Shown here: positions 20,266 through 60,181 of the stretch, piece by piece
How the letters are laid out: every line of letters begins with the position of its first letter
Numbering within the stretch: position 1 is the stretch's first letter
From: Thermogutta terrifontis
Lineage (GTDB): Bacteria; Planctomycetota; Planctomycetia; Pirellulales; Thermoguttaceae
Assembly: GCF_002277955.1 (NCBI RefSeq)
Contig: NZ_CP018477.1
Span: forward strand, 2,935,206-2,999,205
DNA: 64,000 bases
Direction of reading: 5' to 3'
Made by a program: the position numbers and the translations under genes
The notes under the pieces: model-generated
Told to the model about the DNA's origin: nothing
Database searches by the model: none
What the model saw: the letters and a program-made list of their open reading frames with translations, nothing else

Positions 20266-20640
20266 TCCGCAGTTTTGCAAAAACCCACGAGATGCCACGG
20301 GCGCAACGTGCTGTAGGGGCAATTCATGAACTGCCCCTACCAGTCCCAGGGCCCGGATGAAATGGGCCCGCAAATGGAACCGAACATTCGAGCGCTTCTC
20401 AGGATTCGGAGATCAACGGGACGATCGCTCAGGACGGCATCTGCGTCTGTTGGAGGGGCGTCTTCCACGGTATCCGGTGAACACGGAGAGGCACGCTTCT
20501 CGTGCCCGGCGAAACGCAATGCGTCATCTCACGCTGGGAAGCGGACCTGACGAGCATATCCCTCCGAGATGTGGAGTGCGGGGCTTTAGCTCCGCTTTCA
20601 GCGCGGGACTTCAGTCCCCGCCGAAGGCAAATGGATGATC
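20266..20640. repeat. Palindrome array B (composite repeat)
   Basis: Order on the plus strand: a conserved block TTTTGCAAAAACCCACGAGA to GGGCGCAACG (20266-20308), the 28-bp palindrome (20313-20340), a 150-bp segment that recurs inverted at 43060-43190 with roughly 85% identity by eye (shared phrases GGGCCCGGATGAAATGGGCC-like and GCAAATGGAACCGAACATTC), a GGCACGCTTCTCGTGCC hairpin (20491-20507) and the CTTTAG-core hairpins (GGGGCTTTAGCTCC and GGGACTTCAGTCCC) near 20580-20620. It lies upstream of the SGNH esterase gene. Confidence 0.85.
20313..20340. repeat. 28-bp palindrome, copy 2 (one mismatch)
   Basis: Differs from the perfect form by a single T to C in the right arm. Confidence 0.95.
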
Positions 20641-31979: not shown

Positions 31980-32303
31980 GTCGTCGGAGGGAACCGCTTG
32001 TCAGGTCCGCTTTTTCCAACGTTGGACCATCGATTTTGCTTCACCGGGCACGACAAGCGTGCCCCTCCGGCCTTTTTCCGGAGGGACGTGCTTGTCAGAT
32101 CGGCATCTTCGGAGGGACGTGCTTGTCACGTCCGCCGTTCAATGTTGGATCATTCGTTCCCTTTCGCCGGGGACTGAAGTCCCGCGCCGAAAGCGGGGCT
32201 AAAGCCCCGCACTCCATGGAGTGCGGCGATTTATCGCCGCTTTCTTCGTGAAGGCTTTAGCCTTCACAACCTTCCGTCGGTGCAGATGGAACGACGCTAA
32301 GCG

Positions 32304-32331
32304 GTAGGGGCAATTCATGAATTGCCCCTAC
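32304..32331. repeat. 28-bp perfect palindrome, copy 3
   Basis: Identical to the 1572-1599 copy. Confidence 0.95.
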
Positions 32332-32523
32332 CATCCGAGAGAATGCGTTTCGGCGATCGGGGGCCTGTCGGATCGCCTGCCCGTTGCAACATGAACTCAT
32401 GTCATGCCTGTCGCGTCCTGGCCTGTGCCGGAGAACTGGCTTTCCGAACGTGGACTGACTATCCTAATGGGGCGGACGATGTGACGACATTTTTGAGCAC
32501 GCAAAAGAGAATAAGGTGCTGCC

Positions 32524-42924: not shown

Positions 42925-43252
42925 AAATTCAACCCGGGGGAACCTGCTTGCCAGGTCCGCTTTCGGAGGGACGTGCCGGTCACGTCCACTTTGCAACGTT
43001 AGACCACCCATTGGGTTTCGGCGGGCATGGCAAGCGTCTCCCTGCGCGTTCAATGGACGCCGTGGAAGGCATCCCTCCGACAGACGCAGATGCCGCCCTG
43101 AGCGATCGTCCCGTTGGCGTCCGAATCGTGAGAAGCACTCAAATGTTCGGTTCCATTTGCGGGCCCATTTTATCCGGGCCCCGGGACCGGTAGGGGCAAT
43201 TCATGAATTGCCCCTACAGCACGTTGCGCTTGTGGCATCTCAGAGGTTATTG
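42925..43252. repeat. Palindrome array E (composite repeat, inverted copy of B)
   Basis: On the plus strand: GGAGGGACGTGCCGGTCACG hairpin region (42965-42985), GGCGGGCATGGCAAGCGTCT, a 130-bp segment matching array B inverted (43060-43190), the perfect 28-mer (43190-43217) and then AGCACGTTGCGCTTGTGGCA, the inverse of the block before the 28-mer in B. The order is that of B read on the other strand. Confidence 0.85.
43190..43217. repeat. 28-bp perfect palindrome, copy 4
   Basis: Identical to the 1572-1599 copy. Confidence 0.95.
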
Positions 43253-45718: not shown

Positions 45719-46274
45719 AAGTGCTCAGGTTGCCCAAGTAGCCCGGTAACCAGGCGCAGGACCGCATTAACGAGGAATACCTCCGCAGGAGGCAACAAAA
45801 CGAGGACGACTCACTGCGAGTTTTTCTTAATTTTTCGCATCTTTTAATATACGCCAGCCTTCTGCCCGTGAAAAGCAAGCCCGCCGCGACGTGGGAAGCC
45901 TTGCCAAAGGGACTACCTCCACTTTCCCCCGTCGATAGGTACGCGGAGGCCACATCGGCTTACGTCAACCCGGAGGGACGTGCTTGTCGCGTCCGCTTTT
46001 CAGCGTTAGGTGATGCGGTGTGGTTCGGTAGGCTCCATGGAGTGCGGGGCTTTAGCCCCGCTTTCATCGTGGGACTTCAGTCCCCGCTGAAACGGAATGG
46101 ACGATCAAACGTTGAACGGCGGCCCCGACAAGCGGGGCCCTCCGAGAAATCATTCGGAGGGGCGCGCTCGTCGTGCCCGATGAGGAGGCATGGTTCATCG
46201 ATCAGTTTTCATCGGCCCCGACAAGCGGGTCCCTCCGAAGAAGCGGCCCCGAGAAGCGAGTCGCTCCGCACGCG

Positions 46275-46302
46275 GTAGGGGCGATTCATGAATCGCCCCG
46301 AA
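46275..46302. repeat. 28-bp palindrome variant with compensating inner change
   Basis: Centre GGGGCGATTCATGAATCGCC remains perfectly paired because A-to-G is matched by T-to-C; the outermost three bases on the right (GAA instead of TAC) have decayed. Confidence 0.9.
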
Positions 46303-46333
46303 AATACTTTCATCAGGGCCAAGCGGTATGTCG

Positions 46334-46361
46334 GTAGGCGCAATTCATGAATTGCGCCTAC
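46334..46361. repeat. 28-bp palindrome variant with compensating outer change
   Basis: Perfect palindrome (GTAGGCGCAATTCATGAATT + GCGCCTAC). A G-to-C change in the left arm is matched by C-to-G in the right arm. Confidence 0.95.
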
Positions 46362-46574
46362 CTCGCGCCATGCCCTTAGATTCCGACAGATCCTTTCAAA
46401 AAAGTGGGGATGGGTCAGGGCAATCGGTCGCTTGTCAGGGCCCTGCCGGGCCGGGTACGATAACATTTCCTGTGCCCCCTGAATTCAACACCACTGGACG
46501 GCGTGTGAGGCAGACGGCTGGCAGTGCTTCCCGCCGCAAGACCTTGATCAACTGACCAGGTAAAGGACGTGCCT

Positions 46575-47216
46575 ATGTCTGTCAATCCGTGGCTTCCATT
46601 CCCGATAGACCAGTTTGCGCAGGCCGGGTATCGCGATTATCAACGCCAGCGGCAACTCACGCTGGGTGACCTCCTTCTGGAAAACCGCATCATCCTCCTC
46701 CAGGGGCCGATCTACGACCTCAACGCGAGCGAGGTCATCATGAAACTCCTCTATTTGCAAAGCGAAAACCGACGGAAAGACATTCATTTTTACATCAATT
46801 CGCCCGGGGGAAGTGTCACTGCTACCCTGGCGATTTACGACACGATGCAGATTCTCAGTTGCCCGGTGGCCACCTACTGCGTGGGTCTGGCTGCCAGTGG
46901 AGGCGCGGTCCTTTTGGCCGGAGGGACCAAAGGCAAACGCTTCGCGCTCCCGCACTCCAAGGTGATGATCCACCAGCCCTACGGCCAGGTGGGCGGTCAG
47001 GTGAGCGACATCGAGATTCAAACACAGGAGATTCTCCGCACGCGGGACATTCTTAATCAAATTCTCGCGCAGCATACAGGACAGCCAATCGAACGCATTG
47101 CAAAGGACACAGACCGCGATTTCTACATGACTGCCGAGGAAGCCAAGGCTTACGGTATCGTGGACGATATTCTTTCCAAACAGTCCCAGGAAAAACCCGA
47201 AGACGAACTGGAATGA
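46575..47216 (+). CDS. clpP: ATP-dependent Clp protease proteolytic subunit 1
   Basis: A 213-residue ClpP. Catalytic triad preserved: Ser108 in CVGLAASGGAVLLAGG, His133 in VMIHQPYGQVGGQ, Asp182 in [27 protein letters not shown] is the family Gly-rich strand. It differs from its partner in SGGAVLLAGG instead of [10 protein letters not shown], and lacks an obvious cleaved propeptide. ATG 46575 has AAGGA upstream; GTG 46569 possible. ClpP forms double-heptamer chambers with ClpX or ClpA; in bacteria with two clpP genes they often build mixed rings. A second clpP follows after 152 bp. Confidence 0.93.
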   Translation: MSVNPWLPFPIDQFAQAGYRDYQRQRQLTLGDLLLENRIILLQGPIYDLNASEVIMKLLYLQSENRRKDIHFYINSPGGSVTATLAIYDTMQILSCPVATYCVGLAASGGAVLLAGGTKGKRFALPHSKVMIHQPYGQVGGQVSDIEIQTQEILRTRDILNQILAQHTGQPIERIAKDTDRDFYMTAEEAKAYGIVDDILSKQSQEKPEDELE

Positions 47217-47368
47217 ACCAGAAAGTGCCAGCCCAGGAAATAGCCGCTGTCATCTGGACTTCTTGCATTCTCCGAATCATGCGGTCTTTTGAAGCGGTTT
47301 ACCGGGACCTGCACGCGTGAGGCAGCCGCCGCAACGAAAACAATGCGAAGTTGTCAGGAGACTCAATC

Positions 47369-47971
47369 ATGACGCTGATCCCTTTTGTTATTGAACGGAC
47401 GGGTCGGGAAGAGCGGGCGATGGATATTTACAGTCGCCTGCTCAAAGATCGGATTGTCTTTATCGGTGCTCCCATCACGGACGAACTGGCCAACTCGGTG
47501 GTCGCGCAATTGCTCTATCTGCAATCCGAAAACCCCAAGGCAGATGTGCACATTTACATTAATTCGCCAGGCGGAAGTGTGACGGCGGGACTGGCCATCT
47601 ACGATACGATGCAATTCATCCGCTGCGATGTCGCCACCTACTGCATCGGACAGGCTGCGTCCATGGCGGCCGTGCTCCTGGCCGCAGGAACAAAAGGAAA
47701 ACGCTACGCCCTGCCTAATTCGCGGATCATGATCCATCAGCCGATGGCCGGTGTCGAAGGAACTGCTACCGAGATCATGATTCACGCCAAGGAATTCCGG
47801 AACCTCAAAGAGCGGATCAATCGCATCCTGATCAAACACACGGGACACCCCCTTGAGAAAATCGAAAAAGACACGGACCGCGATTGTTTCATGTCCGCTG
47901 AGGAAGCCCGCGACTACGGACTGATCGACCACGTGATCGAGCGTGCCCCGGAGCCTGTGGAAAGGCAGTGA
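47369..47971 (+). CDS. clpP: ATP-dependent Clp protease proteolytic subunit 2
   Basis: A 200-residue ClpP with the canonical sequence: [20 protein letters not shown], Ser98 in [13 protein letters not shown], His123 in [11 protein letters not shown], Asp172 in [22 protein letters not shown] at the end. The N-terminus is the usual hydrophobic loop that docks the ATPase. ATG 47369 has AGGAG. Same strand as the first clpP, so probably one operon. It converges with moxR 46 bp away. Confidence 0.95.
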
Positions 47972-59799: not shown

Positions 59800-59874
59800 A
59801 TCCCCCCTTCTGCAAAAACCACGAGATGCCGCGGGCGCAAGGCGTGGTAGGGGCAATTCATGAATTGCCCCTAC
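59800..59874. repeat. Palindrome array H (conserved left block plus 28-mer)
   Basis: CTTCTGCAAAAACCACGAGA to GGGCGCAAGG (59812-59840), then the perfect 28-mer (59847-59874). The same left block precedes the palindrome at 20266 and 31915 and follows it, inverted, at 43218. Confidence 0.88.
59847..59874. repeat. 28-bp perfect palindrome, copy 5
   Basis: Identical to the 1572-1599 copy. Confidence 0.95.
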
Positions 59875-60181
59875 CGTTTAACCCGCCGCCGAACCGACCG
59901 TTTATCGCCCGGTTGGTGAATTTGGTCATCTAAGGATTGCGCTAGGAACATGACAAGCGCGTCACTCCCAAAGCAAGCCTGAGAAACGGGTTCTACCAGG
60001 CTGATGTCGCTCCCACACAAGCCCGTGCGGATGTCCGCGCTCTTTGGCAGTGGAAAAGTAGGGATCTGTCAGCTTCAGTATCAATTAGGAATTCTTTAGA
60101 CTGAGCAAAAGAGGACGCTTTCTCCCCATACCTGGCTCCGCAAACAGATTTTTTGTCACCGTCCGCGGTAGAAATGTGGTG
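59875..60181. other. Upstream region of the kinase gene, no gene seen
   Basis: About 300 bp in a divergent region; holds presumably the kinase promoter. Nothing else recognised. Confidence 0.4.

Follow-up and report, generated by a model that had tools for sequence, protein, structure and literature searches.

GTAG-Tagged REPs and Their Closest Relatives

The closest described relatives of the palindromes considered here are the double-foot REPs placed in subclass 2.4 by Quentin et al. 2018 (PMC6006769), which carry GTAG and CTAC at opposite ends and are described from many phyla. In the account of this subclass, the arrangement in which a REP transposase is both flanked by the palindrome and carries it has already been published. 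The GTAG families presented by Di Nocera et al. 2013 (PMC3733652; 24 families) are also GTAG-tagged palindromes, with subfamilies that have alternative complementary stem bases and with heterodimers whose members differ in the stem, a likeness of description and not of family consensus; Planctomycetes are listed there among the hosts. REPINs, as presented by Bertels and Rainey 2011 (PMC3116915), are inverted doublets that serve as the copying unit, with single REPs as remnants, and compensatory changes have been reported for them. According to Nunvar et al. 2010 (PMC2817692), modified REPs in BIMEs keep the palindrome and hybrid clusters of several REP types occur, and the kept palindromes were interpreted as selection for complementary mutations. 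Concerning the stem itself, a mismatch is reported to lower TnpA-REP cleavage seriously in the perfect-palindrome type, and the E. coli type needs a bulge (PMC8266576). Stems are also repaired by template switching (PMC8794818), a subject treated in PMC7202029 as well.

The locus described below differs from each of these systems in some respect. In contrast to subclass 2.4, no gene carrying the same core has been found in Thermogutta, and the match to the subclass, as it is described in PMC6006769, rests on the feet and, in other phyla, on the arrangement of the transposase gene, and not on the authors' models. Unlike the REPINs described in PMC3116915, each REP is itself a near-full palindrome, and doublets are a minority (42 of the 170 copies). 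Finally, whereas PMC2817692 explains kept palindromes by selection, the quantitative test reported here indicates that pairing is inherited from the sources and not kept in place.

The Repeat Family in the Thermogutta Genome

The family, GGTAGGGGCRATTCATGAATYGCCCCTACC, is counted in a 30-nt frame that starts with GGTAG and folds as a hairpin. With up to three mismatches allowed, it has 329 copies in the 4,810,751-base Thermogutta genome (a single contig), in which the reversed pattern has none. The window, i.e., the whole stretch of 64,000 nucleotides that was analysed, covers bases 2,935,206–2,999,205 of this genome and holds 7 matches to the motif against 0.06 expected; the motif is not there by chance. 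Apart from the two palindromes under study, motif matches of the A·T type (explained below), with no strand assigned, lie at 1571–1600, 20312–20341 (with a one-arm change), 32303–32332 (perfect), 43189–43218, and 59846–59875 (perfect).

Most counts below come from the window and 80 stretches of 20 kb distributed evenly over the genome (1.664 of 4.81 Mb in all). Every site that agreed at 21 or more of the 30 positions, scored on sequence alone, was taken as a copy, which gave n = 170, with none in the reversed control at the same threshold. REP copies are rare within genes: only 29 of the 170 lie inside ORF proxies, which span 80.3% of the sample. As is usual for GTAG-tagged REPs, the repeat is a palindrome of 20–40 bp with a GTAG foot, present in high copy number and mostly extragenic. 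The combination of GTAG and CTAC ends that distinguishes the double-foot subclass 2.4 is found both in the right REP of the dimer and in the family consensus.

The REP Dimer at 46274–46362

The left REP (46274–46303, plus strand) reads GGTAGGGGCGATTCATGAATCGCCCCGAAA and belongs to the G·C type, as do 25 of the 170 sampled copies including itself; it bears the GTAG foot on its outer side only and has no inner foot. Its hairpin, GGGGCGATTCATGAATCGCCCC, occupies 46278–46299, with the marker pair at 46283/46294. A spacer at 46304–46332 (plus strand), common to the closer ones among the other dimers (57–63 bp start-to-start), separates it from the right REP (46333–46362, plus strand), GGTAGGCGCAATTCATGAATTGCGCCTACC, which is of the A·T type, has the double foot GTAG...CTAC, and carries a private C·G pair at 46339/46356.

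Differences were read against the commonest form in the genome, in which pair 7 is G·C and pair 10 is A·T. In the left copy, pair 10 is G·C; in the right copy, pair 7 is C·G. The original prediction, in which an A-to-G change matched by T-to-C was noticed in the 46275 copy and a G-to-C change matched by C-to-G in the 46334 copy, is therefore borne out by the sequence at both places, and its statement that self-complementarity survives holds for both palindromes, which fold fully. As single-stranded DNA, the left copy forms a 9-pair hairpin of −10.6 kcal/mol and the right copy a 13-pair hairpin of −15.0 kcal/mol, and in either case 0 of 200 shuffles were as stable.

The dimer closes a mosaic at 46039–46370 in which three or more types of repeat are combined: a GGAG palindrome, GACAAGC repeats, and the GTAG double-foot REPs. 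On the plus strand, this cluster comprises a GGAG-type palindrome at 46039–46061, like those around the RAYT gene at 896.6 kb of the same genome (see below), the GACAAGCGGGKCCCTCCG repeat at 46127–46144 and again at 46220–46237, and a diverged copy of the GACAAGC repeat at 46251–46268, directly before the left REP. Among the matches listed for the congener, more than 40 are partial matches to this mosaic. The cluster is followed at 46573–47658 by two adjacent similar genes (71% alike over a 162-nt stretch), which we take, from their appearance, to be clpP copies. In the genomes G002 and G003, the genes beside the cluster align only downstream of it, and no empty insertion site was found there.

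Pair 10 as a Marker of Dimer Partners

The 42 sampled copies that stand in doublets make up 21 dimers, 57–63 bp apart. As in REPINs and other REP dimers, the unit is repeated, has a fixed spacing, and is inverted with GTAG outside, the orientation being taken from the one-sided foot of the left REP; the spacers of the closer dimers are recognisably homologous. Six other places resemble the dimer of the window at 90–93% over 79–98 bases.

Exactly one G·C copy is present in 15 of the 21 dimers (shuffle mean 9.9, p 0.018) and two G·C copies in none (0 of 21), and copies of this type are enriched in dimers, with 15 of 42 as against 10 of 128 outside. The same two states of pair 10, A·T and G·C, are found in many phyla. 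Pair 10 is a two-state subfamily marker, and a dimer usually joins a G·C copy to an A·T copy. For the A/G pair, the suggestion that the matched changes were copied from paired source elements is supported by these dimer counts and by the occurrence of both states across phyla. Perfect pairing at this position is probably dispensable for copying because the broken version, with A opposite G, is common: it occurs in 15 of the 170 copies, and in the congener 12 listed copies depart from the consensus by a broken pair 10 alone.

Covariation within the Genome

For the covariation test, right-arm letters of the 170 copies were dealt out anew by our own shuffle script. Pair 10 shows 27 complementary changes against 8.4 expected, a number reached by 0 of 2000 shuffles, and it covaries because G·C and A·T mark the two usual partners of a dimer. 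With pair 10 set aside, pairs 2–14 are changed in one arm in 392 cases and in both arms in 38, of which 14 are complementary and 24 are not; the shuffle mean for complementary changes is 13.4 (464 of 1000 shuffles give 14 or more). Stricter thresholds for calling copies lead to 6 complementary changes versus 6.1 and to 2 versus 2.8. Shifting the partner by one or two positions yields between 37 and 47 double changes, and the true partners yield 38. The check on genomic copies that had been proposed with the prediction is thus answered in two parts: pair 10 does exceed the shuffles, and the other pairs taken together remain at chance.

There may be a small real excess of paired changes outside pair 10, since the stem core and pair 7 lie above expectation. 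In the core (pairs 5–14 without pair 10), 7 complementary double changes stand against 4.8 expected, and 192 of 1000 shuffles reach 7. At pair 7, where 24 one-arm changes occur, no other copy of the 170 shares the C·G of the 46334 copy; in the 107 best-preserved copies this means 1 against 0.09 expected, with 177 of 2000 shuffles reaching 1. The G-to-C pair of the 46334 copy looks like a one-off, a single case without statistical support.

Orthologous Copies in the Congener

Forty stretches of the congener G001, together with a few search loci, were aligned to the sampled Thermogutta sequence, and palindromes within long matches were kept. The resulting 11 orthologous sites differ by 21 one-arm and 0 two-arm changes. 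At three of the 11 (L264, L276, and L301), the site is at the edge of the match and orthology is supported on one side; without L299:804, the least certain site, 10 sites remain, with 16 one-arm and 0 two-arm changes. L301:1200 (a one-base insertion), L298 (a misaligned match), and matches due to mosaic repeats, e.g., L262 and L263 versus L180 or L299 versus L007, were left out.

The orthologous loci L086 and L202 differ by presence or absence of the palindrome, and the dimer at L006 corresponds to a single copy at the orthologous locus L276. Two congeners have no match to the family at up to two mismatches.

Copies in Other Genomes and Phyla

Exact copies occur in at least 115 stretches of GTDB contigs, which presumably cover at least 12 phyla as we assign the record titles, and the core is exactly conserved across many phyla. 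A relaxed pattern, in which three stem pairs are free and two are restricted to purine or pyrimidine, matches 39 of 40 genomes that bear exact copies. Among the 221 matches listed in 17 other genomes (three of them, G062, G078, and G058, entered only in part), 33 copies are fully paired stem variants and 17 have an unpaired change; these figures are copies and not independent events, the 33 come from six genomes and reduce to 14 combinations of genome and variant, in some of which two pairs are changed. In the own-genome sample, the same pattern finds 1 fully paired variant, the 46334 copy itself, and 11 unpaired ones (n = 30). Paired versus unpaired variants are distributed differently between the 17 genomes and the own genome (Fisher p 0.0006; 0.006 without the richest genome). 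The C·G variant of the 46334 copy recurs in multiplied form in a Nostoc genome, as 4 copies that have a second changed pair as well. Pairing thus appears to be preserved from one source lineage to another in these other genomes.

Transposase Genes Carrying the Palindrome

In other phyla, a gene for a REP-type HUH transposase is flanked by the palindrome and also contains it in frame. The contig set contributed two more palindrome-carrying cases, Candidatus Brocadia WS118 and a Proteobacteria genome, and one transposase gene from Flammeovirgaceae has the palindrome at both ends and none within. GTAGGGGC is present in 17 of 31 examined HUH-bearing ORFs, in frame in 14 and between the motifs in 15 (the copy in L359 is near the ORF end, not between them); since these ORFs were partly chosen for the palindrome, the proportion is not a frequency. 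In seven palindrome-associated proteins (without Acidobacteria), wherever a column has the same amino acid, the codon is shared in all 183 cases within the palindrome and in 860 of 1778 outside it. These seven proteins score 49–74 bits with model NF047646, under its cut-off of 80, and six of the seven are over the PF01797 cut-off. The REP-type HUH transposase that carries the palindrome is likely its mobiliser.

Other relatives of the transposase have the same feet around different, largely complementary cores. In G041 (Dehalococcoidia), the in-gene core is GGGTTTGAAACCC, which is also dispersed in the genome, and this genome harbours three or more double-foot REP families that are alike in their feet and have cores of the ATTCATGAAT, GGTTTGAAACC, and CACAGCTGTG types. 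Translated in either direction, the palindrome gives V-G-A-I-H-E-L/S-P-L, and it lies in frame in long ORFs of 509–1270 aa (L087, L116, L126, L128, and L133), which resembles the in-frame Rickettsia palindromic elements described in PMC3733652. Letter searches of the literature for GAIHELP and ATTCATGAATTGCC found no paper. One transposase, searched against plasmids and phages, gave three distant records and one distant record, respectively.

No transposase gene with this palindrome was found in the two Thermogutta genomes searched (G000 and G001). The former has one REP transposase above the NF047646 cut-off (83 bits), the RAYT at C1:896562–896966, and it was set aside as a candidate mobiliser, its neighbours being the GGAG palindromes GGAGTGCGGCGATTTATCGCCGC and GCGGGGCTAAAGCCCCGCACTCC; this kind of palindrome is also seen in the window at 20573, 32193, 32218, and 46039. 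A second relative in the same genome, at about 3676.4–3676.9 kb (L343, 874–1398), is shortened at its N-terminus and holds in frame a single perfect double-foot palindrome with a different core, ACGGCATGCCGT, of which no other copy occurs in the Thermogutta sequence examined. Neither transposase model has a match in G001 (a 96% complete draft) or in the high-copy genomes G078 and G058. PF01797 matches occur in 35 of 40 palindrome-bearing genomes and in 19 of 24 relatives; the PF01797 count alone was discarded as evidence for a mobiliser, being uninformative when relatives that mostly lack palindromes match too. Among the 24 relatives, palindromes are found only in G000 and G001, the latter being one of the five without a PF01797 match.

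Origin of the Matched Changes

The two palindromes very probably represent a REP heterodimer that inherited its A/G pair from two sources, with resident copies decaying one arm at a time and pairing kept at the copying source. They form the left and right members of a REPIN- or BIME-like, non-autonomous mobile unit; we infer transposition rather than observe it. The A·T/G·C difference was not made in place: the dimer counts support its descent from two old source versions that usually stand side by side in a dimer and were copied in that form. After insertion, copies lose symmetry one arm at a time, as both the sampled copies and the orthologous sites show. The C·G pair of the 46334 copy, a singleton, is explained equally well by a pair of substitutions in that copy or by a single template switch, neither of which requires selection.

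The latter possibility, a quasipalindrome correction by template switching during replication that turned a one-arm change of the 46334 copy into a matched pair, is considered only tentatively. Such repair of stems is known (PMC8794818), and the related dimers L036 and L037, in which only the outer arm carries the 46356 base, are the intermediate that it predicts. Against it, a tree of 13 dimers gave no clear order, so that the shared outer-arm base may be recurrent; one such event is indistinguishable from two substitutions, and if the process were common, a paired excess would be expected throughout the genome, where none is clearly seen.

In-place selection on each hairpin or cruciform, whether as an mRNA stabiliser, a terminator, or a protein site, might also drive compensatory changes, and perfect hairpins in both window copies, the covarying pair 10, and the spread of the family over many phyla could be read in its favour. 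As the main cause it is very improbable and largely refuted by the shuffles and the orthologous sites: there are 392 one-arm changes to 14 paired ones, a number that the shuffles match, not a single two-arm change was found at the 11 orthologous sites, and a broken pair 10 is common both here and in the congener. The selection for the hairpin or cruciform that the original prediction had suggested is accordingly not supported at the present sites; for the 46334 change, what had been named in advance as speaking against it, no excess of paired over single changes, is what was seen outside pair 10. That the palindromes are conserved regulatory protein sites and not mobile repeats is scarcely credible, for although the core is exactly conserved over many phyla, the copies number in the hundreds, dimers have homologous spacers, orthologous loci differ by presence or absence of a copy (L086 versus L202, L006 versus L276), transposase genes carry the element, and two congeners lack it at up to two mismatches.

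Under the reading of a heterodimer copied from two sources, selection for pairing is placed at the source because, in other TnpA-REP systems, a stem mismatch cuts cleavage in the perfect-palindrome type, as reported in PMC8266576; most likely, the hairpin has to be folded to be recognised by a single-strand HUH transposase of the TnpA-REP kind. The Thermogutta copies are probably an orphaned, decaying population because no transposase gene with the palindrome was found in the Thermogutta genomes searched.

Implications for the Family

As a more speculative extension, doubtful as yet, the letters may be frozen across phyla since a master copy sits in the frame of its own transposase (V-G-A-I-H-E-L-P-L) and moves between phyla. 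The in-gene copy would be held by DNA structure and protein together, dispersed and flanking copies would drift via paired variants, and once the gene is lost, as may have happened in Thermogutta, later changes would be one-armed. If this were true, the ratio of paired to one-arm changes would date the loss of the transposase.

A very widespread palindrome is now linked to transposase genes in which it is contained. Elsewhere, complementary changes in REPs were taken as selection on the hairpin (PMC2817692); here, with controls, they are traced mainly to the source that was copied, and resident copies are seen to decay freely. Counting paired versus one-arm changes is suggested as a simple test of whether a REP population is still being renewed.
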